64,000 nt of DNA from Candidatus Zipacnadia bacterium (GTDB taxonomy: Bacteria > Armatimonadota > Zipacnadia > Zipacnadales > UBA5352). A program made the translations under genes and the position numbers. The stretch covers positions 1 to 64,000 of the forward strand of contig JALGUJ010000005.1 in assembly GCA_029820945.1 (NCBI GenBank). The letters run 5' to 3'. The notes below the pieces were generated by a model, which made no database searches, was not told where the DNA came from, and saw only the letters and a program-made list of their open reading frames with translations. Shown here piece after piece: positions 12,758-30,788 of this stretch (the first letter of the stretch is position 1; each line of letters begins with the position of its first letter).

Positions 12758-12966
12758 GGTCATCCCTCCCGGTCTGAATGGAGAGTCCCTGACGGGCCCG
12801 CACGGCCCTGGTGTCTATTGGCGCCGAGGGCCTACCCCCGGCAGCCCACGCAGCGTATCGTGAGGGAGGTTAGCCGCGCGGCCTCCCTTTCCCTCCTTCA
12901 CGAGAAGGAAATCACCCGGCGGCAGCGGGGGAGATCGCCGCGGATCCTCGCGCTCCTCCGCGGCGC
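12758..12966. other. Intergenic region with hairpin, barrel gene upstream sequence
   Basis: About 200 bases with no open frame of note. GGGAGG (12864-12869) can pair with CCTCCC (12882-12887), followed on the plus strand by TTTCCC. As both flanking genes are on the minus strand, it may be a weak terminator for the DUF4091 gene or a regulatory hairpin for the barrel gene. No promoter was recognised. Confidence 0.35.
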
Positions 12967-14655
12967 CTATCTGGCGTGGGCGATGATCTCCGCCAGCTCC
13001 CGGCGCGCCCGGGCGTAGTCCTCCGCGTCGTGGCTCCAGTCGCCGAAGGAGGCGGCGATGTCCGCCACGATGGCATCCACACGCTCGCGGGCGTTCTGGG
13101 GGCGCACCATCACCATGCCCTCCGGGCCCATGACCGCGTGGGTGCGCCCCGACTCGCCCGACGCCGCGGCCATGACCATGTACTCGTAGTCCTCCAGCGC
13201 CTCGCGGATGAGCTTGAGGCGGATGGAGGGCACGGGGCCCTCGATGCCCGCCGGCGGGCCGGGATACAGCAGCATCCCCTCGCCCCAGAACTTCTCACGG
13301 AAGTGCGGGGCCTCCCACACGCCCTCCATCGTCTCATACTGGCTCCAGTAGACGCTCGACCAGTAGAGGAAGCCGGTGATGTCGTAGTGCCAGCTCACCC
13401 AGAAGGGCGCGCGGAAGTTCAGCGGCTCCACGTCGATCTGCCACCACGGAGTGCCCTCCGCGCCCTGGCACAGCGCCGTGTAGCTCCACAGCCTCTCCCC
13501 CTGCTCCAGCCGCTCGCGCGCGGTCGCCTCATCCCACAGGCCCCAGAGCGGGCACCAGATGTCCACCGCCCCGTAGAGGTCGCCCCATTCGGGGTTGCTC
13601 GTGACGGTCTGCTCGGTGCACATGCGGGCGATTTCGGGGTCGGCCTCGTGGATCAGCGCCCCCTGCCGGCGCACCGTCTCGTACTCCTCGGCGTCGTTCG
13701 GCTCATCTCTCATGTAGATGTAGGCCAGGTCGAGATAGCCGAGGTCGCGCAGCCAGTCTGCAATCGCGCGCAGGTAGGCCTTGCACTTCTCGGGCTCATC
13801 GCGATAGCGGAAGGGGATGGCCAGCGCGTTCACGTGCTTCTCCTCGACCAGCATGCGCAGCCGCTCGGCCTCGCCGTGCTCCTGGAGGCCCTCCTCCTCG
13901 GACCACTCAGGCCAGATCGGGCCGAAGGACCCGGGCACGGCGCGGTGGCGCAGCATCTCGTCGATGTAGAGGTCCTCCACGCGCCTGAACTCGTCGGAGT
14001 CCGCGTCTATCCCCAGGCCCTTCGCCACCCGGCTGCCGAGGCTGCCGAAGCGCGAGCGCATGGCGATCTCCGCGGGCAGCTCGAAGTTCCAGACCTCCAG
14101 GTCAACGGGGACCTGTGCCAGCTCGATGCTCCCGGCCGCCACGCTGATAGTGCCGGTGTAGCGTCCGGCGCGAGTGCCCGCAGGCACGAAGAGGTCGCAC
14201 CAGACCTCGGCGTTCTCTCCCGGCTCCACGTCGAAGGGCGCCGCATCGTAGGTTGCGCCCTCAAGGTCCTCGCCGGTCTCCCGATCGAGGAACGGGATCA
14301 GCGCATCAGGGTACCATCCGGTGGGGCTGTCCACGCGGTAGCTCGGCTCGGTGATCTCCAGGTAATGCGCGCGGTATAGCTCGAGGTTGTAGGCCGAGAT
14401 CGCGCCACCGGGGCCGTTGAGGCTGCCGGCGACCACGCGCACGTCGCGCAGCGGGCGGTCGCCCGCATGCACGATGAGGCGGAAGGGCTCGTACTCGTTC
14501 GCCGCGGCCCCCAGCCGTGCCGCGGTCTGCGTGCCGGGCGGGGTGCTCTTGAGCACACGCTGCCAGGGCGAAGCGACCCAGACCGTCGCATCCTCCTGGG
14601 CGAACGCCATGACCGGGATGCAGGTGAGCAGCAGGGCCATCAGCAAGATCTGCAT
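12967..14655 (-). CDS. Secreted DUF4091 glycoside-hydrolase-like protein
   Basis: A 562-residue exported protein with a signal peptide to about residue 19 (PVMAFA) and GAGGAGGT 7 nt before the ATG at 14655. The first ~170 residues are a beta-sandwich seen in DUF4091 proteins (ANEYEPFRLIV; DVEPGENAEVWCDLFVPAG). A TIM-barrel-like region follows with YMRDEPNDAEEY, and the C-terminal DUF4091 signature is SIRLKLIREALEDYEYM. The family is associated with glycan degradation, but activity is largely unassigned. It is the last gene of the run that begins at the ceramidase-like genes; the M14 peptidase gene lies 53 nt upstream. Confidence 0.82.
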   Translation of the reverse strand: MQILLMALLLTCIPVMAFAQEDATVWVASPWQRVLKSTPPGTQTAARLGAAANEYEPFRLIVHAGDRPLRDVRVVAGSLNGPGGAISAYNLELYRAHYLEITEPSYRVDSPTGWYPDALIPFLDRETGEDLEGATYDAAPFDVEPGENAEVWCDLFVPAGTRAGRYTGTISVAAGSIELAQVPVDLEVWNFELPAEIAMRSRFGSLGSRVAKGLGIDADSDEFRRVEDLYIDEMLRHRAVPGSFGPIWPEWSEEEGLQEHGEAERLRMLVEEKHVNALAIPFRYRDEPEKCKAYLRAIADWLRDLGYLDLAYIYMRDEPNDAEEYETVRRQGALIHEADPEIARMCTEQTVTSNPEWGDLYGAVDIWCPLWGLWDEATARERLEQGERLWSYTALCQGAEGTPWWQIDVEPLNFRAPFWVSWHYDITGFLYWSSVYWSQYETMEGVWEAPHFREKFWGEGMLLYPGPPAGIEGPVPSIRLKLIREALEDYEYMVMAAASGESGRTHAVMGPEGMVMVRPQNARERVDAIVADIAASFGDWSHDAEDYARARRELAEIIAHAR

Positions 14656-14708
14656 GGTGGGACCTCCTCGGCGATCACGTGTCGTTGCGTGCCACACGTC
14701 TCCCGCAG

Positions 14709-15692
14709 CTATGGGCCCGCCAGCAACCGCTCGATACCGGTACGTATTGCCACCTCGTTGAGGCGTTGTTGCAGCGCCGGCGGCGTTCGAGGGCTGTTGT
14801 TCTGGATCTCGGAGGTGATGATGTGGAGGCGATGGTACAGGTCGCCCCACCGCTCCACGAAGTACTGCCGCTGCTGGCCCGTGTAGCCCAGCGGCCTGAC
14901 CTCCTCGCACGGGTGAGCGCCCTCAAGCTCGCTCCACGCCGCCACGATCTCCTCCGCCCACTCGCGCTCGTAGCGCTGGATCTCCGGCGGCTGCTCGTCG
15001 AACAGGCAGGGAAGAATCATCATCGCGTTGTGGGGCGAGTTCACGAACTCCGTCTGGTGCAGGCTCAGGGCCTGGTCCCAGTGCTCGTGGCGGTCGAGCA
15101 GCTCGAAGATCCACCGGAAGAGCGTCGAGGAGTGATGGCGGTTCGGCTCCACCCAGTGGTGCTCGTCTATCTGCTCGTAGACGATGCCGATGCGCTCGGG
15201 CAGATTCTCCTCCTCGCGGTCGTCGAAGATGTCCACGCGCTTCCACATCTCGCCGGTCTCGGGATCCTCGCCGCGCATCCAGCACCAGAACTCATCGTTG
15301 CTGTACTTGCTCCCGTCCCAGGCTTCGACGGGCGCGCGGGCGGTGCCGTCGGGGTTGGCGTCGGGCATGAACACGAGTTGGCACTCGCGCAGCACGCGCT
15401 CGTTGTCGAACTCACTGGGCTGGCCGTCGAGCGTCCGGCCGGTCAGGAGCTGGCTGATCACGTTCATCTGCGCGGCGATGGGCGCGGGCTCGTGCGCGTG
15501 CGGCTTGAAGAACATGGCCTTAGCCTTGCCGGCGTCATCGACCGACCGGTCCGTCACCGTCAGCGCCCACACCGGCCTGCCGGCGAACTGCGTCTTGCTC
15601 TCGGCGAGGAAGATGTCGCCATGGTCGGCCGACCACTGAGCGACCTTCGCGTCCACCTCGTCCGGATGCGAGATCCAGGCGGGCTCGAGCAT
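14709..15692 (-). CDS. M14-family zinc carboxypeptidase-like protein
   Basis: A 327-residue protein with the M14 metallopeptidase pattern. It has His65-Ala-His67-Glu68 (KPHAHEPAP, the HxxE zinc motif), ANPDG typical of the substrate-binding loop, a third candidate zinc His in LSLHQTE and a late SEIQ that could supply the catalytic Glu. It has no signal peptide, unlike digestive M14 enzymes, so it probably acts in the cytosol on a peptide or amide of unknown nature. GGAGG lies 7 nt before the start. Only 3 nt separate it from the upstream oxidoreductase gene, so they are in one operon. Confidence 0.75.
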   Translation of the reverse strand: MLEPAWISHPDEVDAKVAQWSADHGDIFLAESKTQFAGRPVWALTVTDRSVDDAGKAKAMFFKPHAHEPAPIAAQMNVISQLLTGRTLDGQPSEFDNERVLRECQLVFMPDANPDGTARAPVEAWDGSKYSNDEFWCWMRGEDPETGEMWKRVDIFDDREEENLPERIGIVYEQIDEHHWVEPNRHHSSTLFRWIFELLDRHEHWDQALSLHQTEFVNSPHNAMMILPCLFDEQPPEIQRYEREWAEEIVAAWSELEGAHPCEEVRPLGYTGQQRQYFVERWGDLYHRLHIITSEIQNNSPRTPPALQQRLNEVAIRTGIERLLAGP

Positions 15693-15695
15693 CGT

Positions 15696-16886
15696 TCAGC
15701 CTCCGTTCCGCGTCGGTGGATGGTACTCCCACGGCTCCGGCTCGACGTCCGGCAGCGGGACGTGGTTCCAGAACTCGGTCCCGCGCCGCGGTCCGGTGCG
15801 TATGTCCGGCACGCTGATGGGCTGTCCGCCCAGCTCCGCCGACCGCGCCGCGAGAATCCCCGGCACCGTGTAGTCGCACATGCGGTAGACGTCGATCGGG
15901 ACGTGCCGGTCCTGCAGCAGCGCGCGCGTGAAGTACCAGGCGGTCTTGAGGTCCGCGCCCGCATGGCCGGTGGTGGTATCGTCGTCCGGCGCGGCCAGCC
16001 CGATGTCGTAGACCTTCCAGCCATCTTGCACACCCATGTCGCGGTCGTTCAGCCGGCAGAAGCCCTCGTGTCGGAACCACTCGAGGCTGCCGAGCGTGCC
16101 CATCAGCCGGTAGTTGTGCGGGTGCGGACGCTGCGTGTTGAGGCTGACGGTGATCTTGATCATGCGCCCCGCCGCGGTCTGGAAGAGCGCCGTCTGGGCG
16201 TCCGCGCGCAGCGGCGCCTGCTCCTGCCACCACGGCCCCTCGCGGCAGACCACCGAGGTCACGCGGTCGTCGAGGACCTCCAGCAACGGGCCAAGCTCGT
16301 GCGTCAGGTACTGGATCGGCGGCTGGTCGGCCCGCCATGAGGGCGGCAGGTCGGTCAGGCCCTCCTCCCGGGCCTGCAGCGGCGTGGTGCGCTCGTTGCC
16401 GGGCGTCACGAGGGTCGCGGGCAAGTAGTGAACGTACTCGCCCTCGGCGTACGAGACCTGCCCGATGCGTTCCTCGACCACCCACTTGCGGAAGTAGCGC
16501 ACGAAGTCCCAGAATGCTGAGTTCTCGCCCAGCATGTACTGCCTGCCCGAGGCCTGAGCGGCCGCCACGATGCGGTGGGCCTCCTCCACCGTGAAGGCGC
16601 CCGGCACCTCGGAGATGACGTGGCACCCGGCCCTGAGCGCCTTGATCGAGTGCTCGGCCTGGCGGCGGCCGTTCGTCGCAACCACGACCGCGTCCGGCTC
16701 CATCGCCAGGAGCTCGTCGTACTCCTCGACCAGCCGTGCCTCCGGCACCACCTCTCGAACGTTCTCGCGAAGGTGCTCGTATCTGTCGGCGCACCCGATG
16801 ATCTCGACGTCATCCAGGTAGGCGTAGTTTCTCACATGGGTCCTGCCACGCCGCAGGCCCAGGATTCCGACGCGGAGGTTACTCAT
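15696..16886 (-). CDS. Gfo/Idh/MocA-family oxidoreductase, paralogue 1 (EKP lysine missing)
   Basis: A 396-residue NAD(P)-dependent oxidoreductase-type protein. The N terminus VGILGLRRGRTH is the Rossmann glycine loop and CADRYEHL follows the second strand. The motif that normally reads EKP is SEVPGAF here, so the conserved lysine is replaced by Val. The C-terminal alpha/beta domain contains VPIDVYRMCDYTVPGI with conserved Asp/Tyr. It is the same length as, and closely similar to, the next gene (SEVPG, EGPWWQ and VPDIR segments shared), so the two are a tandem duplication. GGGAGA precedes the start. The M14 gene follows by 3 nt. Confidence 0.87.
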   Translation of the reverse strand: MSNLRVGILGLRRGRTHVRNYAYLDDVEIIGCADRYEHLRENVREVVPEARLVEEYDELLAMEPDAVVVATNGRRQAEHSIKALRAGCHVISEVPGAFTVEEAHRIVAAAQASGRQYMLGENSAFWDFVRYFRKWVVEERIGQVSYAEGEYVHYLPATLVTPGNERTTPLQAREEGLTDLPPSWRADQPPIQYLTHELGPLLEVLDDRVTSVVCREGPWWQEQAPLRADAQTALFQTAAGRMIKITVSLNTQRPHPHNYRLMGTLGSLEWFRHEGFCRLNDRDMGVQDGWKVYDIGLAAPDDDTTTGHAGADLKTAWYFTRALLQDRHVPIDVYRMCDYTVPGILAARSAELGGQPISVPDIRTGPRRGTEFWNHVPLPDVEPEPWEYHPPTRNGG

Positions 16887-16957: not shown

Positions 16958-18148
16958 TCAGAAGATAAGCTGGCTCGGCGACTCGTAGTCCCACCGCTCC
17001 GGCTCAGTCTCGGGGATGGGCACATGCTCCCAGAAGACCGTGCCGCCGCGTGGGCCGGACCGGATGTCCGGCACGGTGATCGGCTGGCCGCCGAGCTCGG
17101 CCGAGCGGGCCGCCAGGATTCCGGGCACTGAGTAGTCGCACATGCGGTAGACGTCGATCGGCACCTCGCGGCCTTCGAGGATCGCCTTCGTGAAGTAGTA
17201 CGCGGTCTTGATGTCGGTGCCGCCGTGGCCGACCGTCTTGTCGTCCTCGGGCGCCGCGCTGCCGATGGGGACGCACTCCCAGCCCTCGCGCTCCTCGCGG
17301 TCGCGGTCGCAGATGCGGCAGAATCCCTCGTGGCTGAGCCACTCCGCCCCGCCCTCCGTCCCGTGGAGGCGGTAGTTGTGCGAGCCGGGCCGGCGCGTGC
17401 TGAGCGTCACGGTGATCTTGATGAGGCGCCCGGCCGCGGTCTGGAAGAGCGCCACCTGCGCGTCCGCGCGCAGCGGCGTCTGAGTCTGCCACCACGGTCC
17501 CTCGCGGCAGACCACGGACACCACGCGGTCGTCGAGCACCTCCAGGAGCGGCCCGAGATCGTGGGTCAGGTACTGGATCGGCGGCTGATCGGCGCGCCAC
17601 GTCGGCACCAGATCGGTCCGGCCCTCCTCGCGGGCCTGCGCCGGCGTGTAGCGGTTGTTGTCCGCGTCCATCAGGCTGTACGGCAGGTAGTGCAGGTACT
17701 CGCCCTCCGCCAGCGAGATGTCGCCGAGGCAGCCCTCGAGCACCCACTTGCGCCAGTAGCGCAGGAAGTCCAGGAAGCACGAGTTCTCGGCCAGCATGTA
17801 CTGCCGGCCGCTCTGCTGGACAGCGGCGACAATGTGGTGCGCCTCCTCGACCGTGAAAACGCCCGGCACCTCCGACATGGCGTGGCAGCCGGCCTCAAGG
17901 GCCTGGATCGCGTGCTTCGCCTGGGCTCGACCGTTCGTGCACACGGCGATGGCGTCCGGCTCCATCGCCAGTAGCTCCTCATACTCCTCCACCATGGGCA
18001 CGTCCGGCGCGATCTCCTGCGCGGCCTCGCGGATATGCTCGTGGCGGTCGGCGCCGCCGATGACCTCCGCGTCCTCCACGCGCATGAAATTGCCCAGGTG
18101 CGACCTGCCCCGGCGCAGGCCCAGGATCCCGACACGCAGCTTCTTCAT
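16958..18148 (-). CDS. Gfo/Idh/MocA-family oxidoreductase, paralogue 2 (EKP lysine missing)
   Basis: Also 396 residues, with VGILGLRRGRSH at the N terminus and SEVPGVFTVEEAH at the EKP position, again lacking the lysine. It shares long stretches with paralogue 1, including ADQPPIQYLTH, EGPWWQ and VPIDVYRMCDYSVPGILAA. The start at 18148 has AAGGAGAG 9 nt upstream; the frame extends to 18184 without one. It probably reduces or oxidises a sugar or cyclitol, or serves as a dehydratase-like member of the family. The substrate is unknown. A 71-nt gap separates it from paralogue 1. Confidence 0.87.
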   Translation of the reverse strand: MKKLRVGILGLRRGRSHLGNFMRVEDAEVIGGADRHEHIREAAQEIAPDVPMVEEYEELLAMEPDAIAVCTNGRAQAKHAIQALEAGCHAMSEVPGVFTVEEAHHIVAAVQQSGRQYMLAENSCFLDFLRYWRKWVLEGCLGDISLAEGEYLHYLPYSLMDADNNRYTPAQAREEGRTDLVPTWRADQPPIQYLTHDLGPLLEVLDDRVVSVVCREGPWWQTQTPLRADAQVALFQTAAGRLIKITVTLSTRRPGSHNYRLHGTEGGAEWLSHEGFCRICDRDREEREGWECVPIGSAAPEDDKTVGHGGTDIKTAYYFTKAILEGREVPIDVYRMCDYSVPGILAARSAELGGQPITVPDIRSGPRGGTVFWEHVPIPETEPERWDYESPSQLIF

Positions 18149-18343
18149 GGTAGCGACTCTCCTTGGCGATCCGTCACACGTCACCAGTCATAGGCCTTAA
18201 CTAACGACACACAGCCGGGCAAGCAGGAGGGCTCGCCCCTCACGAACGGCTAGGACAGGGGGGAACACCGAACGGCCCATTACCGGCACACTCGTGGCGC
18301 GGCACGATGTCGCGTGCCCTTGTCGTGAGCCAGCAACCGGCGT
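18149..18343. other. Short intergenic region with hairpin
   Basis: Between ceramidase-like paralogue A and oxidoreductase paralogue 2. GGCACG (18301-18306) can pair with CGTGCC (18313-18318), loop ATGTCG, shortly after the ceramidase-like stop on the minus strand. It may be a weak terminator. No clear promoter was found. Confidence 0.3.
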
Positions 18344-19702
18344 CTACCGCCCCTCGCTCATTCGCGGGCGGTCGAGGGGCGCTTCGTCGTCCCAGATCTC
18401 CCACATCGCCGCCTGCACCCAGTCCGTCATGCGCCGGCCCGCGTCGGCGATGAGCCGCCGCGAGAGGATGGGCTTGGCGCCGTAGCCGCCGCGCATGGCC
18501 TGGTCGGTGGTGGGCACGTAGCCGACCCAGTCGTTCGCCAGCTCCACCACGAAGGTCCACGGTGCGGGCGACCAGTGCTTGATCTCCAGCCCCCACTTCG
18601 TGAAGACCTCGGCGGGCAGGCCCACGATCATCATGTCACCGAAGCGCATCACCTGCAGCGGGACCCGGGCGATCTGCCCGTCAAGCTCCCACCGCTCGAC
18701 CGCGCCGATGGTCGCCTTCTCGAAGTACTCCAGGTCGTCGCGCTGCTTCATCGCCTCGATCTCGGCCATCAGGTCATCGTCGCGGGTGTAGTACGGGATC
18801 TGCAGGTCCTCGTACTTCGAGCCGCAGCCGGTGCCCTCCATCGGCTCGGCCACCTCGATCGCCGCGACCGCCAGGCCCGCGTAGGTGCGGCCCATCTGCA
18901 TGGCCTTGGCCTCGCCCTCGCCCGGCTGGCGGGTCTCGCGCCAGAGGCGGTGGTTGATGTCGCCGCAGCACCCGTTGGCGAAGAGCGTGATGGCCTGCTC
19001 TCCGTAGACGCCGGCGATGGCGCGCTCCATGATGCCGGGCCAGTCGGCGGAGACGAAGTCCGCCGACCCGCCTCCGATGACATCGGCGTGCATCGGGTAG
19101 TTGACGAGCACCGCGCGGACCGTGCCGTCGTGCTCGCGAACGCCCAGCGCCAGCAGCTCAGGATCGACCGGTCCGGCGTGCCCGAGGACGCCGCTGCTGG
19201 AGAAGACCTCATCGCCATCGCGCGTGCGCCCCAGGCGGTTGCTGGTCAGGCAGTGCTCCTGCTGGACGCCCGGAAAGAGCAGCGCGTCGAAGGTGTCGTT
19301 CGCGGCGGCCTCCGCAGTGTCGGCGATCAGGCCGGGCAGCGCGTCCAGCCACTGCTGCGGAATCTGCCAGCGGCCCCCGCGCACGGGCGGGCCCGTGTGC
19401 GTGTGGGTGGCCGAGATCAGGATGCGGTCCGCGGGGATGCCCGTCCGCTCGACGATGCTCTCGCGCGCGGGGTCGGCCCACTCGCGCAGCACGTTGACCA
19501 GATCGAGTGTCGCCAGGCAGATGCGGCAGTCCCCGTCCTCGAGCACCAGCGCGCGGCAGTGCAGGTCGTCACGCACGCGCGAGCCGATGCGCTCGTGGTA
19601 GTAGCCGGCCAGCGGGACCTCGCCCTCGGGGGTGATGACGGTCCGGGCCACTCCGGCGCGAATCTCGGGCAGCCCGTCGGTGTCATAGGGTGACGCGGCC
19701 AT
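18344..19702 (-). CDS. Neutral/alkaline ceramidase-fold protein, paralogue A (nucleophile Ser replaced by Asn)
   Basis: A 452-residue protein of the neutral/alkaline non-lysosomal ceramidase N-terminal domain type. The putative zinc ligands are kept: His100 and His102 in SATHTHTGP, His205 in NYPMHADVIGG, a Glu in GLPAEVFTKWG and a Tyr in VGYVPTTDQA. True neutral ceramidases carry the nucleophile Ser in GDVSPN; here the segment is CCGDINHR, with Asn250. There is no signal peptide, whereas ceramidases are exported. So it is a cytosolic zinc protein of this fold with a different, unknown reaction. The start at ATG 19702 has GAGGAG 8 nt upstream and is preferred over the GTG at 19711. It is one of three paralogues. 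Confidence 0.8.
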   Translation of the reverse strand: MAASPYDTDGLPEIRAGVARTVITPEGEVPLAGYYHERIGSRVRDDLHCRALVLEDGDCRICLATLDLVNVLREWADPARESIVERTGIPADRILISATHTHTGPPVRGGRWQIPQQWLDALPGLIADTAEAAANDTFDALLFPGVQQEHCLTSNRLGRTRDGDEVFSSSGVLGHAGPVDPELLALGVREHDGTVRAVLVNYPMHADVIGGGSADFVSADWPGIMERAIAGVYGEQAITLFANGCCGDINHRLWRETRQPGEGEAKAMQMGRTYAGLAVAAIEVAEPMEGTGCGSKYEDLQIPYYTRDDDLMAEIEAMKQRDDLEYFEKATIGAVERWELDGQIARVPLQVMRFGDMMIVGLPAEVFTKWGLEIKHWSPAPWTFVVELANDWVGYVPTTDQAMRGGYGAKPILSRRLIADAGRRMTDWVQAAMWEIWDDEAPLDRPRMSEGR

Positions 19703-19738
19703 GTTGCTCACTCCTCGCTGTTGCTTACACTTCGGCGG

Positions 19739-21964
19739 TCAACGCTCAGAGCGCCGGATGATGTCCTGCTGCTCCGCCTCCGGCAGGAGCACGAAGTACG
19801 CGTTGAACCCGGCGACGCGGACCATCAGATCGCGGTGGAAGTCCGGATGGCGGACAGCGTCGAGCAGCGCCTCCCGGCCCACCACGTTGACCTGCAGGTG
19901 CAGGCCCCCCAGGTCGAAGTACGCCTCCATCAGGCCGCGGATGACCTCCGCCCGCTTCCGCGTTTCGGTCTCGCCCAGGGACACGGCGAGCGTTGCCGCG
20001 CCCGCCGGGGCGCGATGAAGCGGCAGTGCGGCCATTGACAGGAGCTTCGACGTGGCGGAACATCGCGCCGTCCCGGCCGACGGCGAGAGGTTCTCGCTGA
20101 GCGGGTCGCCGGACGCCCGGCCGTCGGGCGTTGCGGGCGTATGCTCGCCCAGCCGCAGGTGGGCCATGTGCGAGTAGAAGCCCGGCCACATCGCGAGGCG
20201 CTCCATGCCCTCCGAGGCGCGCTGCACCTCATCGGCCCACAGGTCGCCAACGCGCGCGGTCAGATCCCGGACAGCCCGGTCATCCTGGCCGAAGCGCGGC
20301 AGCTCGGTGCGGATGCGCCGCCGCAGCGCCTCATGGCCCGACCAGTCGGCGGAGAGGATGCGGGCGAGTTCGGGCAGGCTGACGCGGTCGCCCGCATCAT
20401 CGCCGAAGGCCACCTCGCGGATTGCGGTCAGGGAGTCGATGGCTGTCGCGATCCCGGCGAAGTAGTGGTTCAGGTGGCTGACGGGCGCGGCGGTCCAGCA
20501 CGACTCGCCCGCCTCGAGAGCGGCGCGCACCAGGCAGGAGTAGAGCAGCGGCGTAGCGTCACGGTAATGCTGCGCCCAGCGTCGCTGTGAGGCCTCGCGA
20601 CCGCGGGCCAACGCGAAGCGCACCTGCTCGGCGAAGGCGGCCCATAGGTCCTCGAAGGTCGCAAGCCGATCAGGCTCGGGGGTCGCTGCGCCCGCCATCT
20701 CCCCGCTCACCGGGTCGCGGCCGCCGGTCATGGCAAGCAGCACCATGCGCGGGACATTGTAGAAGCCGCCCGGGCCGCTCCCGGCCTCAAGGCCGGGGAC
20801 GAAGGCGTTGTGGCAGGCGCTGTGAGCGTAGCAGCGCGCATCGGGCTCCGGGACGCCGTTCTCGACCAGGCCGGGGATGACCACCGCGTCATTGTAGACG
20901 GTGACGGGCAGGCGATCGGCCATCAGCCCCGTGATACTCCCGAGGAGCGCCGCGTCCATGTCGGCGTGGTAGCGGAGCAGGAGCGTCGGCTCCTTGTAGG
21001 CCAGGCGGCGGATCGCGTCGGCGATCGCAAGGGACAGCTCGTTCTCGGCCGGGGCGCCATCCCGGGTGACGCCGCCAACCGTCACGTAAAGGTGGCTGTA
21101 ACGACAGGGCGAGCGGCGGTGATTCGACTCGAAGTCCGACGCGTTCCCGGCGGTTTGCGTCAGTCGCAGCAGGAACATCGCCAGCAGCGTCACCGCATCG
21201 TCACGCGCAAGCTGGCCGCGCTCGATGCTGGTACGGTAGAAAGGCAGGAGGTACTGATCGACCCGCCCGGGCGTGACGTCACGCCCACCCACGAGGCACG
21301 AGAGCGCCATGTGCACGATCTGCAGCAGTTGCAGCGCCTCCGGCAGGTCCACCGGCGGGTCCCAGGCGACGCGATCGCAGCGCGCGGCGATCAGCTCAAG
21401 CTCGCGGCGGCGCCGGGGCCCGGCATGGCGCGCCAGCTCAAGCGCCCTCGACGCGTACCGGCGCAGGAGCGTCGAGACCGCCTGCATCGCCGCGATGGCC
21501 GCTCTGTAGAACTCGGCCCGCGCGGCATCACCTGGCAGCACTGAAAGCCGCTCTAGCGCATATGCCGCGATGCCACCCAGGCCGCGCTGCAGGAGCAGAT
21601 CCCACTCCGGGACGCAGATGGAGATGCCGTCGAACCACCCGGGCACGCCCGGCTCCACGAACAACTCCGGGCGCCGGGCGATCAGCGCCTCTTCCTCGGC
21701 GCTCGGGATCACTGCGGGCATCTGGCCGACGATGGTATCCTCGTCCAGGATGACGGGCGTGATGCCCTCACAGAGGTCGCGGAGGACGGCTGCCTGGCGC
21801 GGCACCCGCTCCAGCGACGCGTGCTCGCGCTCGGCCGCCATGAGGATGCGGGCGCGCTCCATGCACACCAGGCGCTCGTCCTCAGCCAGGCGGCGCGCGC
21901 GCAGGCGGTCGAGCCGGGTGGCATCGACCGCGACGGGTGCGCCTGCCTGCTCAAGCTCGGACAT
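19739..21964 (-). CDS. Glycyl radical enzyme (pyruvate formate-lyase/dehydratase superfamily)
   Basis: A 741-residue member of the glycyl radical enzyme superfamily, which works only without oxygen after a radical-SAM activase makes the glycyl radical. The radical site is RVAGFNAYF with Gly719 near the C terminus. The active-site cysteine is most likely Cys384 in HSACHNAF, in the middle of the barrel where other members have GCVE. The catalytic Glu two residues on, used by dehydratases and lyases such as CutC, is Asn here, and there is no Cys-Cys pair as in pyruvate formate-lyase. The substrate is unknown. No activase is in the window. The start at 21964 has GGAG 9 nt upstream; upstream ATGs lack one. 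It lies between two ceramidase-like genes on the same strand. Confidence 0.85.
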   Translation of the reverse strand: MSELEQAGAPVAVDATRLDRLRARRLAEDERLVCMERARILMAAEREHASLERVPRQAAVLRDLCEGITPVILDEDTIVGQMPAVIPSAEEEALIARRPELFVEPGVPGWFDGISICVPEWDLLLQRGLGGIAAYALERLSVLPGDAARAEFYRAAIAAMQAVSTLLRRYASRALELARHAGPRRRRELELIAARCDRVAWDPPVDLPEALQLLQIVHMALSCLVGGRDVTPGRVDQYLLPFYRTSIERGQLARDDAVTLLAMFLLRLTQTAGNASDFESNHRRSPCRYSHLYVTVGGVTRDGAPAENELSLAIADAIRRLAYKEPTLLLRYHADMDAALLGSITGLMADRLPVTVYNDAVVIPGLVENGVPEPDARCYAHSACHNAFVPGLEAGSGPGGFYNVPRMVLLAMTGGRDPVSGEMAGAATPEPDRLATFEDLWAAFAEQVRFALARGREASQRRWAQHYRDATPLLYSCLVRAALEAGESCWTAAPVSHLNHYFAGIATAIDSLTAIREVAFGDDAGDRVSLPELARILSADWSGHEALRRRIRTELPRFGQDDRAVRDLTARVGDLWADEVQRASEGMERLAMWPGFYSHMAHLRLGEHTPATPDGRASGDPLSENLSPSAGTARCSATSKLLSMAALPLHRAPAGAATLAVSLGETETRKRAEVIRGLMEAYFDLGGLHLQVNVVGREALLDAVRHPDFHRDLMVRVAGFNAYFVLLPEAEQQDIIRRSER

Positions 21965-22046
21965 CGGCTTGCTCTCCATACGGGCAACCATCTGACCGCC
22001 GGGACCGGCGCAATGGCGACGGTTGCCGCTTACCCGCGGCTTCCAG

Positions 22047-23372
22047 CTACTCCACCATCCGCCACATCAGCACCTGAGCGCTGTCGGCGATCCGGCGACC
22101 GGCGTCGGCGATGAGCCGGTGCGACTGCGTCGGGCGGGCGCCGTAGGCCCAGCGCGAGGCCTGGTCGGTGGTCGGAATATACCCGAACCAGGCGTTCGAG
22201 AGCGACGCGACCGCCGTCCAGTCGGTTGGCGACCAGCGCTTGACCTCCAGCCCCCACGCCGCGAAGACCTCGCTGGGCAGGCCCACGAACAGCAGGTCAC
22301 CCAGGCGCAGCACCTGGACCGGCACCTCCGCGACGTCGCCGTCATGGGTCCACTCATCGAAGCAGCGCACCCAGGCCTCGTCGAGATACGGCAGCTCCTC
22401 CTGCGCGCGCAGGCTCTCAATGTGCACGCGCAGCTTCTCAGTGCGGATGTAGTACGGGATCTCCAGATCCTCCCACGCGACCGCGATGCCGCCGCTCTCG
22501 AGCGGCTCGGCCTTCTCCGAGCAGTTGATGGCGGCGCCGGCCAGCGCCCGGCCGACCTGCACGGCCTTCGCCTCGCCGCTCTGTGGCAGGCGCGAGGGCT
22601 CCCAACGCCTGTGGTAGACGTCACCGTTGGGCGCGTTGAGCAGCACGGTCACGAAGTCATCGCCATACATGCCGCACATCGCGCGGGACAGCTCGCCCGG
22701 CCAGTCGGCTGAGATGAAGTCGGCGCTCCCGCCACCGATCACGTTCGCGTGCATGCCATAGCAGGCTACCATGCCGCGCGGGGTACCGTCGAACTCGCGG
22801 ATCCCCAGCGCCAGCAGCTCAGGGTCGGTCGGGCCGGCCGGGCCGATGAGGCCCTCCGCGCTGGTGCCCATGTGCTCTGACCCATCCCTGAGCCTGAACA
22901 CGCGGCAGACGCCGGTGTCGTCCACGGTGCGACCCGGGAAGAGGAGGGCGTCGAACATGTCGTCCGCGGCCGCTGAGACGGTGTCGGCGATCGCGCGCGG
23001 CAAGTCCTGCAGCCACTCGGGATTGACCCACTCGCCGCGGATCGCCGGCCGCACCGCCGGGCCGGTGTGCGTGTGGGTGGCGCAGATCAGCACGGCCTCC
23101 TCGGGCATGTCGAGGCGCCCGCCAATCATCGACCGCGCCTCGTCTCCCCAGCCGCGATCGACGGCGATCAGGTCGAGGCTCACCAGCACGACGCGCCTGC
23201 CCTCGGACTCAAGCACCGCGGCGTGGCAGTGGAGGTGATCGCGCACGCTCGTGGCCTCGCGGTCGTGGAAGAAGCCGGCCATCATGGCCGGGATCGGTGG
23301 CGTGATGCGCGTGCGCGCCAGCCCGGCGCGGATCGCCGGCAGACCGTCGGTGTTGTACGCTGAGGCGGGCAT
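22047..23372 (-). CDS. Neutral/alkaline ceramidase-fold protein, paralogue B (nucleophile Ser replaced by Tyr)
   Basis: A 441-residue paralogue of the neighbouring ceramidase-fold proteins. His100 and His102 in CATHTHTGP, His208 in CYGMHANVIGG, Glu in GLPSEVFAAWG and Tyr in FGYIPTTDQ match the zinc-site positions. The nucleophile segment reads PNGDVYHRRW, with Tyr253 in place of Ser. No signal peptide is present. GGAGG lies about 7 nt before the ATG at 23372. It is followed after 82 nt by the glycyl radical enzyme on the same strand, suggesting joint expression. Confidence 0.8.
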   Translation of the reverse strand: MPASAYNTDGLPAIRAGLARTRITPPIPAMMAGFFHDREATSVRDHLHCHAAVLESEGRRVVLVSLDLIAVDRGWGDEARSMIGGRLDMPEEAVLICATHTHTGPAVRPAIRGEWVNPEWLQDLPRAIADTVSAAADDMFDALLFPGRTVDDTGVCRVFRLRDGSEHMGTSAEGLIGPAGPTDPELLALGIREFDGTPRGMVACYGMHANVIGGGSADFISADWPGELSRAMCGMYGDDFVTVLLNAPNGDVYHRRWEPSRLPQSGEAKAVQVGRALAGAAINCSEKAEPLESGGIAVAWEDLEIPYYIRTEKLRVHIESLRAQEELPYLDEAWVRCFDEWTHDGDVAEVPVQVLRLGDLLFVGLPSEVFAAWGLEVKRWSPTDWTAVASLSNAWFGYIPTTDQASRWAYGARPTQSHRLIADAGRRIADSAQVLMWRMVE

Positions 23373-23449
23373 GGCGCCCCTCCGGAACGGCGGGAATTGG
23401 GAATGGGCAATCGGCAACAGGGAAGGGCGACGACGAACGCCGTCGCGGT

Positions 23450-24826
23450 CTACGTGTCATTCGGCGGCACTGCGCTGCCGCCCTCACCCATGCGCGGGCG
23501 GTCGTGCTCGGCTTCGCCCTCCCACAGATCCCACATCGCGACCTGCACCGCGTCGGTCATCTTCCGGCCACCGTCGGCCTCCAGACGCCGCGACAGGATC
23601 GGCTTGGCGCCGTAAGCCCCGCGCAGGGCCTGGTCGCTCGTGGGGATGTAGCCGAACCAGTCGTTGGCCAGCTCGGCCACGAAGGTCCACCGGCCGGGCG
23701 ACCAGTGCTTGATCTCCAGCCCCCAGCCGACAAAGACCTCGCTGGGGATGCCCACGATCGCGACGTCGCCCACGCGCATGACCTGGACAGGCACCCGCGC
23801 GACCTCGCCGTCGTGCGGCCAGTCCTCGAAGGCATCGATCACGTACCGGTCCCGGGGGCTGATCTCGTCCCCGGCGCGCAGTTGCTCGACCTCCGCGCGC
23901 ATCTCGTCATCGCGGGTGTAGTAGGGAATATCCACGTGGCGGAAGATGCAGCCGATCTCGCCGGTCTCCAGCGGCTCGGCCAGCTCGGTGGCGTCCACCG
24001 CCAGCCCGGCCATGGCGCGCCCCATCTGCGTCGCCTTCTCGATGCCCTTGCCGACCCATCGGCTCTCATACCAGTGCCCGTGGTTGATGTCGCCGCAGGT
24101 GCCCTGCAGGAAGACCGTCACGCACTGGTCGCCGTAGATGTTGCGCAGCGTTGCGGCCATGCGGCCCGGCCATCCCGCCGAGATCCCGTTGCCCCCGACC
24201 GTGTCCGCGTGCATGGCGTAGTTCGCCACCATGGCGCGCACGGTGCCCTGGCGATCGCGCACGCATAGAGCCATCAGCTCGGGGTCGATGGGGCCCGCCG
24301 GGCCGAGCGTTCCCTCCTTGCCGAAGACCTCGCTCGCGTCCGGGCGGCGGCCAATGCGGTTGCTGCCCATGCGGTCCTCGTAGCCCCGCGCAGGCAGCAG
24401 CACGGCGTCGAACATCTCCTCGCACGCGGCCTCAACCGACGAGGCGATCAGCCCCGGTACGCTCTCCAGCCACTCGTCGTTCGTGGGGATGATCCGGCCC
24501 CGTCGCATCTCCGGGCCCGTGTGCGTGTGCGTGGCGCAGATGAGCGCGTTGCCGGCCGGGATGCCGATGCGCTCTTCGATGCGCCCGCGCGCGGGGTCGG
24601 CGATGTCGCCCGGCATGCAGATGACATCGCAGGAGACCAGCGCGATGCGCTCTCCCCTACTCTCCAGCACCAGCGCGTTGGCGTAGAGCGGGTCCTCGAC
24701 GCGGTCTGAGGTGCGCGGCGTGAAGTAGCCTGCCAACGCGGTGCCGACCGGTGGCGTGATCTCAACGCGGGCCGAGCCCGCGCGTATCTCCGGCAGCCCC
24801 TCCATGTCGATGGGTCCGTCGGGCAT
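23450..24826 (-). CDS. Neutral/alkaline ceramidase-fold protein, paralogue C (nucleophile Ser replaced by Asn)
   Basis: A 458-residue paralogue and the first gene of the minus-strand cluster. Zinc-site segments are CATHTHTGP (His100, His102), NYAMHADTVGG (His206), GIPSEVFVGWG and FGYIPTSDQ. The nucleophile segment is TCGDINHG, with Asn248 where ceramidases have Ser. There is no export signal. GGAGG lies 10 nt before the start. The end is 77 nt from the next paralogue. Divergence from A and B suggests an old triplication with kept metal site and altered chemistry. Confidence 0.8.
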   Translation of the reverse strand: MPDGPIDMEGLPEIRAGSARVEITPPVGTALAGYFTPRTSDRVEDPLYANALVLESRGERIALVSCDVICMPGDIADPARGRIEERIGIPAGNALICATHTHTGPEMRRGRIIPTNDEWLESVPGLIASSVEAACEEMFDAVLLPARGYEDRMGSNRIGRRPDASEVFGKEGTLGPAGPIDPELMALCVRDRQGTVRAMVANYAMHADTVGGNGISAGWPGRMAATLRNIYGDQCVTVFLQGTCGDINHGHWYESRWVGKGIEKATQMGRAMAGLAVDATELAEPLETGEIGCIFRHVDIPYYTRDDEMRAEVEQLRAGDEISPRDRYVIDAFEDWPHDGEVARVPVQVMRVGDVAIVGIPSEVFVGWGLEIKHWSPGRWTFVAELANDWFGYIPTSDQALRGAYGAKPILSRRLEADGGRKMTDAVQVAMWDLWEGEAEHDRPRMGEGGSAVPPNDT

Positions 24827-25081: not shown

Positions 25082-27172
25082 ATGAAGGCGACCGCCGGGC
25101 TGCTGGCCGCGCTGATCGCGGTCAGTGCGTGCGCCGCACCCGATCCGCTTGTCCCCGTCAGTGATGAATACGTCACCACCAGCCCCGCCTACACCTACAT
25201 CCTCGACCGCGGGCCCGTCCTGACCGACGAGGGCGAGGTCGATCGAGAGTATGTCGATCTCCTCGCTCAGGGGCCGCCGAGCCTGCTCGAGAACGGCAAC
25301 CTCACGCCCGGCCACCCCTACTTCGGCCCGGTGTGTGATCTAGGCGCCCTCAGGGCCGGCGAGGAGGTGCCGGTCGACGAGTTCGTACGCCGCTATGCGC
25401 AACGCCGGGAGGCGATGCCTCGCTACATCGAGGCCGCCAGGGCGGCCGGCGTGGACCGCGTGATCGCCTACATCTGCATGATGACCACCGGCGGCGACCC
25501 CGAGAAGCGCACCGGATTCTGGGCATTCTGGGACAACTGGGACGCGTTCGAGGACTTCAACATCCCGCCGCGGCCCGAGCTTGATCCGGTCAACTGGCAG
25601 CAGCGCCAGCCGGATGGCTCCCCGGTGATCGCCTACCGCCGCGATCACCCGCCCTATCACCCCATGTTCCGCTGGACGAACTGCATCAACAACCCCGCGT
25701 GGCGCACCTACCAGCGCTGGGTCACCGAGGAGGCCGCGCGCGTTGGGATCGACGGCTTCTTCGTGGACAACGCGGGCACCCAGCACTGCTACTGCGAGCA
25801 CTGCCGCGCGGGCTTCAGGGAATGGCTCCGCTCACGGTACACGGACGCCGAGATCGAGGACCTGTTCGGCGGCGACCTGTCGATGGCGCCCGACTGGCGG
25901 CGCGGAACAGATCTGCGCACGGCCGAGACGCTGCTGTTCTGGCGTGACAGCATCCACCGTTTCCTCGGTGACATCCGCGAGTGGGGCTCGGCGATACACG
26001 GCAACTTCTTCGTCTTCCCCAACGGCCTGCACAAGCGCCACTACCACATCGCCACCAGCTTCCGCGACTGCGACCTGGCGATGGACGAGAACTCAGTGGG
26101 CGGCTTCGGCACCCATCCGGGGCAGATCACCCAGCACATCGTGGCCGGGATGTATGACCAGCATGTCAATGACAACATGCTCGCGTACAAGTACGCCACC
26201 GGCGCGGGCTTCCCGTGCCGGATGAACCTGCTCTGCCGAAGCGGCTACCCGACGAGCGACTACGGCGCGCTCGGGCCGAACAAGTACGTGGGGGCGCTTG
26301 GCATCGCCGAGGCCAGCGCGTTCGGAGGAGGCGGCTGCTACCTGCACCGCGGTCCGCGCCACGCAGAGTGGCTGATCCCGGTCCGCGCGAAGTGGAACGC
26401 CTTCTTTGACCGCTGCGCGCGGGACCTCGCGGGCAAGTACCCCTGGGGCCAGGTGGCGATCTTCGCCCCTGTCGCTCCCAGCTACTTCAACGACAGGATG
26501 ACGTATTCGGGGGCCGAGCACACGCTGCGGACGCTGCTCGAGCGCAAGATCCTCGCCGACCTGATCACCGAGAACACCTTCACCGCCGAGCGCCTCGCGC
26601 GCTACGAGGCGGTCGTGGTCCCGTTCGTCGCGATCATGTCCGACGCGCAGATGCAGACGCTGATCGACTACGGCGACGCCGGCGGCACGCTGGTGCTCAT
26701 CGGCGAGGACGTCGCGAGCCGCGATCGATTCGGACGCGACCGCGCCGAAGCCGACCGGCAGGCGCTGCTGGACGCGGCGGCCCTGCACACGCCCGCCAGC
26801 GTGGATCAGGCTCTAGTAGACGGCGCGGCCCTGGCGGAGCTGCCGCTCGGCGCGCGCAACGAGGCGCCACTGGTGCGCATGGCGGCCTACGTGGATGACC
26901 CGGAGGCGCCGACGGAACTCCTTCTGCACATGGTGAACTACGATGTGCACCTGGGCATGGATGAGCCGAGGCTGAACGCCGTCAGTGACCTGGCGCTGAC
27001 GGTGCCGCTGCCCACGGGCACGGTGGCGACCGGGGCGACGCTCAAGCGCCCGGACGCGGACGACCTGCCGGTCGCGGTCGCCTGCGAGGGCGGCACGGCA
27101 CGGCTGACAGTGCCTGAACTGAATATCTACGCATACCTGCGCATCCCGCTGCAGAGAGGTGAGGGCCAGTGA
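25082..27172 (+). CDS. Secreted GH42-like TIM-barrel protein with altered acid/base site
   Basis: A 696-residue exported protein. The N terminus (LIAVSACAA) can be read as a lipobox with Cys17 or as an ordinary signal peptide. The barrel shows the GH42 Cys cluster (HCYCEHCRAGFREWL, about residue 235 onward), which binds zinc in GH42. However, the preceding segment reads VDNAG, with Ala231 where GH42 enzymes have the acid/base Glu after Asn. A flavodoxin-like domain resembling the beta-galactosidase trimerisation domain follows (about 455-570), then a beta-rich C terminus. Classical beta-galactosidase activity is therefore doubtful. GGAGG lies 7 nt before the start. The next gene overlaps it by 4 nt. 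Confidence 0.75.
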   Translation: MKATAGLLAALIAVSACAAPDPLVPVSDEYVTTSPAYTYILDRGPVLTDEGEVDREYVDLLAQGPPSLLENGNLTPGHPYFGPVCDLGALRAGEEVPVDEFVRRYAQRREAMPRYIEAARAAGVDRVIAYICMMTTGGDPEKRTGFWAFWDNWDAFEDFNIPPRPELDPVNWQQRQPDGSPVIAYRRDHPPYHPMFRWTNCINNPAWRTYQRWVTEEAARVGIDGFFVDNAGTQHCYCEHCRAGFREWLRSRYTDAEIEDLFGGDLSMAPDWRRGTDLRTAETLLFWRDSIHRFLGDIREWGSAIHGNFFVFPNGLHKRHYHIATSFRDCDLAMDENSVGGFGTHPGQITQHIVAGMYDQHVNDNMLAYKYATGAGFPCRMNLLCRSGYPTSDYGALGPNKYVGALGIAEASAFGGGGCYLHRGPRHAEWLIPVRAKWNAFFDRCARDLAGKYPWGQVAIFAPVAPSYFNDRMTYSGAEHTLRTLLERKILADLITENTFTAERLARYEAVVVPFVAIMSDAQMQTLIDYGDAGGTLVLIGEDVASRDRFGRDRAEADRQALLDAAALHTPASVDQALVDGAALAELPLGARNEAPLVRMAAYVDDPEAPTELLLHMVNYDVHLGMDEPRLNAVSDLALTVPLPTGTVATGATLKRPDADDLPVAVACEGGTARLTVPELNIYAYLRIPLQRGEGQ

Positions 27173-28008: not shown

Positions 28009-29349
28009 GTGAGGACCCGAATCTGCGCTGCGGTCGTGCTCGCGGTTGTCCTGTCAACGTGCCTCGGGATCGCGCAGGAGGACACCGCGAAGCCATGGGA
28101 GACCTGGCGGCCGCCCGCCGTCGAGATGCCGGACCCCAACGCCTGGGAGATCTACCTGCTGGCCTTCGAGCTGGAGGAGCATATCTACGAGCGACTGCGG
28201 GAGGAGGCCGGGCTGCCTCCCAGGCAGGAGGAGGCGGATCGGCCACCAGAACCGATGGCGGTCGCCCCGCAGCAGCCACCCCTGCTGCGATTCGGCTGGG
28301 GGCATGAGGAGCCGACGGTCGAGGAGTTACAGCGCCTCGCCGACGCCTATGATCCCGTCTTCGCCGCTCTCGAGGCGGCGATGGCCGGCGAGGCGCAGCC
28401 GCCACCGATCCGCTCGCTTGCCGATACCGAGGAAGCCTTCCCGCACTTCGCCCACTTTCGCGAGGCCGCGCGCATGTTCTCGGGCCGGGCGCTGCTGCAC
28501 CGCAGGGAGGAGCGGTCGCTCGAGGCCGCGCTTGACTGCATCGCGTGCGTGCGACTCGGCGCGGACGTCGGGCAGCAGCGCAGCCTGATCGCGGGCCTCG
28601 TGCAGGTCGCATGCCAGGCCATCGGCGAGGCGCGACTGCGCGAGGATATCTCCACGCTCGACGGCCGCGAGGCGCGGATCGCGCTCAACGCGCTGCAGCG
28701 TGCGATGGCCGACGCAGCAGGCTTCGGCGAGATCATGGCGGGCGAGGCGATCGTGGGCAAGACACTCTTCATCGAGACGATTGCCCCGGCGCTCGGAGAC
28801 GAGGCCAGGCTGGCCCAGGTCTACGGCGATGAGAAGCTGGCCCGCGAGGCACGGGGGGTGACCGCGCAGGAGACATGGCCGTTGATGGTCGAGGTCTTCG
28901 AGCGGCGCACCGAGCAGGCGCGCAAGCCGTACTGGGCGCGCGAGGCGATTGAGGCGCCCGAAAACCCGATCGTGGGGCGGTCGGTCTCCGCATTAGAGCG
29001 CGCGGGGGGCAAGTTCGCGTACATGCAGGCGCGCCTGCGACTCGCCGTAGCGGGCCTCGCCGCACAGGCGTTCAGGGCCGATGCCGGCGTCTACCCCGCC
29101 ACGCTCGATGCGCTCGTGCCGGACTATCTGCAGGAGGTCCCGCGCGATCCCTTCGCCGACGCGCCAATGCGGTCGATCGCGCGCGATCCAGTCTCCCGCG
29201 CCCATCCGGCGGCCGGTCGGGAGCCCACGGGCGCGGGCGTGCTGACGATCTACTCCGTCGGCCCCGACGGAGATGACGACGGCGGGGCAGACATCGGCCA
29301 CGACCTGGACGCGGACGGCGACATCGCGCTCGTGCTGGGGGCTGACTGA
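28009..29349 (+). CDS. Secreted protein with pseudopilin-like C-terminal tail, tandem copy 1
   Basis: A 446-residue exported protein starting with GTG. The signal peptide is about residues 1-22, followed by PWETWRPPAVEMPDPNAWE. The middle (about 100-340) is helical. The C-terminal ~100 residues read YPATLDALVPDYLQEVPRDP and IYSVGPDGDDDGG, resembling the C-terminal half of type II secretion major pseudopilins. The pilin N-terminal methylation helix is absent, so it is not itself a pseudopilin. A closely related copy follows on the same strand. Function unknown. Confidence 0.75.
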   Translation: MRTRICAAVVLAVVLSTCLGIAQEDTAKPWETWRPPAVEMPDPNAWEIYLLAFELEEHIYERLREEAGLPPRQEEADRPPEPMAVAPQQPPLLRFGWGHEEPTVEELQRLADAYDPVFAALEAAMAGEAQPPPIRSLADTEEAFPHFAHFREAARMFSGRALLHRREERSLEAALDCIACVRLGADVGQQRSLIAGLVQVACQAIGEARLREDISTLDGREARIALNALQRAMADAAGFGEIMAGEAIVGKTLFIETIAPALGDEARLAQVYGDEKLAREARGVTAQETWPLMVEVFERRTEQARKPYWAREAIEAPENPIVGRSVSALERAGGKFAYMQARLRLAVAGLAAQAFRADAGVYPATLDALVPDYLQEVPRDPFADAPMRSIARDPVSRAHPAAGREPTGAGVLTIYSVGPDGDDDGGADIGHDLDADGDIALVLGAD

Positions 29350-29501
29350 AGGCAGCACGGTCTGACCAACGCGAGTGAGGCAGAGCCATGCCGCCGGCAC
29401 CGGGCGGGCGAGGGAGCGCGGCGGCACCGGCGGCGGCACGAGCGCCGGCAGCCGACGGCGAGCGTACTGCGGAGGGACCGCGGGGGCGAGGGATGATTGA
29501 T

Positions 29502-30788
29502 GTGAGGACGCGAAGCTGGATCGCGGTCGTGCTGACGGTGCTGATGCCGCTTCGCGTCGCTCCCGCGCAGGAGCAGGCCGCCGAGGCGAAGCCGTGGGAG
29601 GCCTGGCAGCCGCCGTCCGTCGGGATGCCCGACCCGAACGCCTTCGAGCTGTACGAGCTGGCCTTCGATCTGCAGGCCGCCATCCAGGCACGGCTGGAGG
29701 AGGAGCACGCGGGCGATGCCGAGCCGCCGCGCCTGGTGCTCGATGCCGCGGACGGCCTCGACACCGAGACGACCCGCACGCTCGCCGCCGCTTACGCGCC
29801 GGTCTTCCGCACGCTGGAGGAGGCCATCGCCGGCGAGGCGCAGTTCCCCATGCTCACCGATCCCGAGCAGCAGATGCCGTACTTCGCGAAGCTGCGCGAG
29901 GCCGCGCGCATGTTCTCGTCGCGCGCCAGGATGTACCGCGCCGACGGGCGCCCGCTGCGGGCCGCGCTGGACGCGATCGCGTGCATGCACATCGGGGCGG
30001 ACGCGATGACACAGGGGACGCTCATCTCCGGCCTGGTCGGGGTCGCGGTGCAGTCGATCGGCCTGCGCGACCTGGACGCAGCGATGCCCGCGATGGACGC
30101 GACCGAGGCCCAGATAGCCCTCAATGCCCTGCGCCGCGCGGCGGCCGAACGCGCCAGCTTCACGGACGTTATGCGCGGCGAGGAGACTTACGTGCGGCTG
30201 GCGATGATCCGCTACTTCCCGATGTTCGAGGAAGCGCAGGACGCGGCGGATCGGCAGCTCGGCCCCGAGGCCGCCGGACAGCTCGGTGCCATGGAGCCCG
30301 CACGCACATGGGAGGAGATCGGCCGCTACTTCAGCGACCTCGCCGCCCAGGCGGACAGACCATGGTGTGAGCGCACCGACCCGGAGGAGCCCGCCAACCC
30401 GCTGCTGGCGAACCTGACGCCAGCGTATCGCGTCGCGTCCCTCAAGTTCGCCGTTATGGAGGCGCGCTGCGCCCTTGCCCAGGCGGCGCTCGCGGCCCAC
30501 ATCTACCTCGCCGACACTGAGGGCCTGCCGGAGTCGCTCGACGCGCTGGTGCCCGACTACCTGCCTGACGTCCCGCGCGATCCGTTCGCGGACGCCCCGC
30601 TGCAGGCGGAGTACTTCCCACCGGAGCGCCGAGCCCACCCGGCCACCGGCCGCGAGCCACAGGGGGGGGAGGTCCTGGTGATCTACTCGCTTGGCCCGGA
30701 CGGCAATGACGACGGGGGCCAGGACATCGGGACGAGCGTGGACGCCGACAGCATCGGCGACATCGCCCTGGTGCTGGCGCCGGACTGA
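29502..30788 (+). CDS. Secreted protein with pseudopilin-like C-terminal tail, tandem copy 2
   Basis: A 428-residue paralogue of the previous gene: PWEAWQPPSVGMPDPNAFE at the mature N terminus and SLDALVPDYLPDVPRDPFAD with IYSLGPDGNDDGG at the C terminus. The start is put at GTG 29502 (GTGAGGACGCGA), because it aligns with the copy 1 start GTGAGGACCCGA and has GAGGG 9 nt upstream. The ATG at 29493 touches that site. The gap to copy 1 is 152 nt. The pair arose by tandem duplication; partners and function are unknown. Confidence 0.75.
   Translation: MRTRSWIAVVLTVLMPLRVAPAQEQAAEAKPWEAWQPPSVGMPDPNAFELYELAFDLQAAIQARLEEEHAGDAEPPRLVLDAADGLDTETTRTLAAAYAPVFRTLEEAIAGEAQFPMLTDPEQQMPYFAKLREAARMFSSRARMYRADGRPLRAALDAIACMHIGADAMTQGTLISGLVGVAVQSIGLRDLDAAMPAMDATEAQIALNALRRAAAERASFTDVMRGEETYVRLAMIRYFPMFEEAQDAADRQLGPEAAGQLGAMEPARTWEEIGRYFSDLAAQADRPWCERTDPEEPANPLLANLTPAYRVASLKFAVMEARCALAQAALAAHIYLADTEGLPESLDALVPDYLPDVPRDPFADAPLQAEYFPPERRAHPATGREPQGGEVLVIYSLGPDGNDDGGQDIGTSVDADSIGDIALVLAPD

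Follow-up and report, generated by a model that had tools for sequence, protein, structure and literature searches.

We analysed a window of 64,000 nucleotides (contig JALGUJ010000005.1 of a Candidatus Zipacnadia bacterium), in which three intact minus-strand ORFs encode ceramidase-fold proteins of 455-458 aa. In this analysis we named them CerA (18344-19711; 455 aa), CerB (22047-23417) and CerC (23450-24826). Their pairwise identities are 52-56% (53% and 56% to CerA). CerA was assigned from its ORF, an AlphaFold2 model, Foldseek and a profile alignment, CerB from its ORF, Pfam and the identity to its sisters, and CerC from its ORF, Pfam, identity and a tree. The listed ORF of CerB starts with TTG; its true start is likely the ATG 45 bases further inside, at about position 23372. 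The three genes and their relatives are under purifying selection (dN/dS about 0.2-0.3), and CerB (0.24) is as constrained as its sisters (0.28 and 0.21), which rules out a decaying pseudogene.

The trio forms part of a minus-strand operon in the order CerC, CerB, glycyl radical enzyme, CerA, two Gfo/Idh/MocA oxidoreductases, M14-like protein and GH123-like protein. The first oxidoreductase (16958-18184, minus; Pfam), with a weak GH109 match at its C-terminus, also adjoins CerA in the related loci L064, L065, L068, L076 and L115. It is followed by the second (15696-16886, minus; Pfam), by an M14-type zinc carboxypeptidase-like protein (14709-15692, minus; Pfam), which is kept in L065, L068 and L076, and by a GH123-type glycoside hydrolase-like protein with a signal peptide (12967-14700, listed ORF to 14910, minus; PF13320, E 2e-14), which is kept in L065 and L068. 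In these last two loci, CerA is retained together with a CerC-type gene and with the Gfo, M14 and GH123 genes. On the other side the operon is bordered by a secreted, divergent GH42/GHL6-like protein (25082-27172, plus; Pfam), and the same border occurs in L064, L066, L069 and L076. With this GH42-like protein and a second one (45609-49538, plus), a rhamnogalacturonan lyase-like protein (40781-42922, minus) and an acetyl-xylan-esterase-like protein (8609-11734, minus), the window resembles a region for polysaccharide degradation. Two similar-looking exported proteins encoded side by side (28009-29349 and 29388-30788, both plus), neither with a Pfam match, are probable tandem duplicates. A 292-aa protein (11885-12763, minus), likewise without a Pfam match, has a counterpart next to this cluster in L068 (55% identity).

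The glycyl radical enzyme between CerA and CerB (19739-21991, minus), which the original prediction had not mentioned, consists of a PFL-like and a Gly_radical domain (Pfam E 7e-93 and 3e-18). Alignment with YbiW-type enzymes showed that the radical glycine loop (RVAGFN; RVAGYS in YbiW) and the thiyl cysteine (YAHSACHN; YAAIGCIE in YbiW) are kept. The catalytic Glu that dehydratase- or lyase-type enzymes have two positions past the Cys (GCxE) is replaced by Asn (ACHN), a change that we also found in L157-L160. The enzymes of L157 and L158 are 76-78% identical to that of the window and occupy the same position between ceramidase-like genes; L159 and L160 carry the ACHN motif with no ceramidase-like gene within the short flank examined. 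A new glycyl radical chemistry is possible for this enzyme. The window contains no matching activase, and the only strong candidate lies elsewhere (G000:C188), beside another glycyl radical enzyme. Among the relatives of the cluster, the glycyl radical enzyme was present in L064 (genome G009) and L076 (genome G005) only, each time between ceramidase-like genes, and in these two loci there is also a CerB-type gene as third paralogue, whose slot residue (see below) is Tyr or Ala.

The AlphaFold2 model of CerA, computed from a 70-row alignment that left out plasmid-derived rows, had a mean pLDDT of 93.1 and a pTM of 0.92. Searched with Foldseek against the PDB, it gave convincing matches to the neutral ceramidases 2zws, 2zxc and 4wgk only (E 1.7e-29 to 9e-26). 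The best was 2zws from Pseudomonas aeruginosa (E 1.7e-29; query TM score 0.73, and about 0.7 for all three), and the first match beyond ceramidases dropped to E 8e-4 and a TM score of 0.15. Together with the ORFs, this bears out the proposal of three ceramidase-fold paralogues in one cluster.

A profile of 74 members matched 2zws with E 1e-33 and placed CerA H103, H208, E368 and Y398 opposite His97, His204, Glu411 and Tyr448, which we take to be the zinc ligands of 2zws. CerA, CerB and CerC all retain Arg159 and the four ligands, the latter in the motifs ATHTHTGP (all three), PMHAD/GMHAN/AMHAD, PAEVF/PSEVF and GYVPTTDQ/GYIPTTDQ/GYIPTSDQ. Conservation of the putative zinc site had been predicted correctly. 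The predicted numbering His100/His102 for the N-terminal histidines applies to CerC and to CerA counted from an internal ATG; counted from the annotated GTG of CerA, these residues are 103 and 105.

In the same alignment, CerA Asn253 stands opposite the Ser of the 2zws motif GNLSPN (residue 250 of the mature chain by our own count, and presumably Ser274 of the literature in precursor numbering). The slots of the trio read GDINHR, GDVYHR and GDINHG, with Asn, Tyr and Asn opposite the catalytic Ser and His in place of the Pro that follows it, so the predicted loss of the nucleophile was confirmed. The reference motif had been given as GDVSPN; this is the human-type sequence (alignment with 4wgk), whereas the Pseudomonas motif is GNLSPN. 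No conserved Ser able to replace the nucleophile was found. Ser221 is near-invariant, but the aligned Ser is also present in 2zws (ISAD/ISPD) and it is therefore not a replacement. We infer that the chemistry may well differ from that of ceramidase, as had been suggested.

Neutral/alkaline non-lysosomal ceramidases (PF04734; 2zws from P. aeruginosa, 4wgk human) thus share the fold and the register of the four ligands with the trio, and they have equivalents of His105, Arg159 and Tyr410. They are longer (about 646-688 aa versus about 455 aa), only about 17% identical, and have a C-terminal domain and an export signal. The C-terminal domain is absent from the ORFs of the trio, and no signal peptide or hydrophobic stretch was visible in the N-termini (MSNMAASPYDTDGLPEIRAG, MPASAYNTDGLPAIRAG, MPDGPIDMEGLPEIRAG). 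As predicted, CerA, CerB and CerC would accordingly be cytosolic, and they appear to be single-domain proteins. Their match to PF04734 was weak but real (25-30 bits; curated cut-off 32.1), and they scored 16-19 bits against NF041649, the NCBI neutral-ceramidase equivalog model, whose cut-off is 1200.

The trio had been presented as exceptional, and this did not hold. All three proteins have the traits of a short family (70-member profile), namely a length of about 400-460 aa, ATHTH, Arg159, the zinc Glu, the GYxP Tyr and a G[DN]xx slot. Among 206 non-identical members, H103 is conserved in 203 and H105 in 204, values that are partly biased since 80 loci were collected by the ATHTHTGP pattern; the other sites are free of this bias (H208 in 203, E368 in 201, Y398 in 200, R159 in 204 and Y410 in 196). 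Position 253 is Asn in 151 members, Ser in 14, Thr in 12, Cys in eight, Ala in five, Asp in four, Val in three and Tyr in two, and rarely His. A nearly invariant metal site beside a variable slot indicates that selection holds the zinc site and not the nucleophile. The predicted GDxx-H pattern fits CerA, CerB and CerC, and His is common at position 254, but elsewhere in the family P, N, S, Q or T occurs there. The only Tyr orthologue of CerB is in L064 (GDVYQR), and the next nearest proteins, in L067 and L076, have Ala (GDLAPR). On a tree built without the slot motif, the distribution of Asn needs nine changes compared with 49 in shuffles, and most Ser members fall into one clade, mixed with Thr and Ala. 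A clade with Cys in the slot (G/A-N-L/I-C-Q; L013, L138, L245, L247-L249 and L254) is kept across genera, and its members are candidates for thiol nucleophiles.

About 20 such proteins (24 matches) are encoded in the genome of the window itself, and the family is present in 40 of 41 related genomes, with up to 40 matches in one of them. In public genomes, the subclade of the trio occurs in Armatimonadota/Zipacnadia/WS1, Lentisphaerota, Hydrogenedentota, Sumerlaeota, Planctomycetota and Verrucomicrobiota. Bacterial and archaeal members are annotated automatically as 'neutral/alkaline non-lysosomal ceramidase N-terminal domain-containing protein'. The trio belongs to this family and differs from it in nothing essential, with the same length, the same zinc site and the mostly Asn-type slot; its subclade is a typical one, common to Armatimonadota/WS1, Lentisphaerota, Hydrogenedentota and others. 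Among 251 genomes of the phylum we found no true ceramidase, the best PF04734 score being 95.6 bits, over the N-terminal half. Our literature search, which had little access to subscription papers, yielded no published work on Ser-less members. A preprint on metal-dependent bile salt hydrolases (PMC13081902) deals with another fold. Absence of the Ser is the rule in a large family and hence not peculiar to the trio. We conclude that CerA, CerB and CerC are typical members and that what is new is the family, not these three proteins.

The gene context of distant relatives was very mixed. On alphaproteobacterial plasmids (Nitratireductor, Microvirga and Ponticoccus; slots GDANHA, GDANTG and GDVNTG), the gene overlaps a NagA-like deacetylase gene by 4 bp, is preceded by NagB-like and sugar-isomerase genes and is followed by a sugar ABC transporter. 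The HMM identities in this operon (nagA, E 4e-56; nagB, E 2e-30) are both under the curated cut-offs. Haloarchaeal members are flanked by Gfo/Idh/MocA genes and by a heparinase-like gene or sulfatases. On an Enterococcus raffinosus plasmid (L186, 4799-7239), a tandem pair lies between an amidohydrolase and a beta-glucoside PTS. Of this pair, one protein has lost two of the three His (HFQ), and the other has Ser in GDSSNH. Sugar-type context was absent around the plasmid members of Agrobacterium and Arthrobacter, the neighbours in uncultured phyla vary, and no single neighbour is conserved across the distant members (no Pfam family in more than three of 61 neighbours). Given this mixture, the case for amino sugars comes from the alphaproteobacterial operon, with scattered hits besides. 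It is suggestive of a carbohydrate connection, not one that is general across the family.

We propose that CerA, CerB and CerC are ceramidase-superfamily proteins that dispense with the Ser, CerA and CerC acting as zinc-water hydrolases of small carbohydrate-derived N-acyl, O-acyl or lactone compounds, a reading that we regard as the likeliest of those considered, if short of probable. A mononuclear zinc would be held by two His, one Glu and one Tyr, and the zinc-activated water would attack the amide or ester carbonyl, polarised by the conserved Arg159, His105 and Tyr410. Asn253 and His254, in the old Ser slot, would position the substrate instead of acting as nucleophile, and the slot residue would thereby shape the choice of substrate. 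Zinc-water amidases such as M14 carboxypeptidases and LpxC-type deacylases use metal-activated water and form no covalent intermediate; their zinc ligands are unlike those of the trio, and the likeness is in the proposed mechanism only. The substrates would be small, hydrophilic compounds in the cell and not ceramide. We suggest carbohydrate-derived amides or esters because the alphaproteobacterial relatives are translationally coupled to NagA-like genes and lie beside NagB-like genes; in the operon of the window, the carbohydrate-type neighbours are the GH123-like protein and the two Gfo/Idh/MocA oxidoreductases. CerB, with Tyr in the slot and Ala in its relatives, may be a third copy that has diverged and accompanies the glycyl radical enzyme, as a specialised enzyme or a partner subunit.

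Several other explanations have to be weighed against this one. That the proteins are ordinary ceramidases acting on ceramide, with another Ser as the nucleophile, would agree with the shared fold and zinc site. We consider it very improbable, since the Ser is missing from the catalytic position, Ser221 is no substitute, the proteins have neither signal peptide nor C-terminal domain and the equivalog scores are far below the cut-off. It seems just as hard to believe that only the covalent step differs, with Thr or Cys (12 and eight of the 206 members) as substitute nucleophiles and an Asn-assisted route in the Asn variants; the 151 Asn members would be left unexplained, and Thr and Ala members intermingle within the Ser clade.

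Rather unlikely, though to be taken more seriously, is the idea that the members without the Ser use their zinc for another type of reaction, as lyases, epimerases or isomerases of sugar-derived substrates, and lost hydrolysis together with the nucleophile. Asn-type and Ser-type members differ also at the linked positions Phe370 (two residues past the zinc Glu, E368), loop 164-181 and P400, so that an entirely different reaction is conceivable; oxidoreductases and sugar isomerases adjoin Ser-less members, and the common His at 254 is a possible acid/base. However, Arg159, His105 and Tyr410, which according to the alignment line the ceramidase site, are kept in both groups, and a zinc-water hydrolase requires no further change. 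We also think it unlikely that the Ser-less copies, or at least CerB, are non-catalytic binding or scaffold proteins and that CerB pairs with CerA or CerC as a heteromer. The Tyr and Ala slots of CerB and its relatives, the recurrence of tandem pairs and the Enterococcus protein with a depleted His set speak for such a role, but the zinc ligands and Arg159 are intact in all three proteins and selection constrains CerB no less than the other two.

More broadly, the Asn branch may consist of undescribed zinc-water hydrolases for amides of amino sugars or related carbohydrates. The Ser mechanism would then be one of several uses of a more ancient zinc site, and in these anaerobes CerA, CerB and CerC would act in the same pathway as a glycyl radical enzyme whose chemistry is new (Asn for Glu). 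We regard this extension as possible but doubtful. The label 'ceramidase' on this large bacterial and archaeal family is probably misleading, because nearly all members lack the Ser thought necessary for ceramidase chemistry. If zinc-water activity were demonstrated, a protein that is very common in Armatimonadota, Lentisphaerota, Planctomycetota and Hydrogenedentota would gain a function, and the role of the Ser in true ceramidases would need to be reconsidered.
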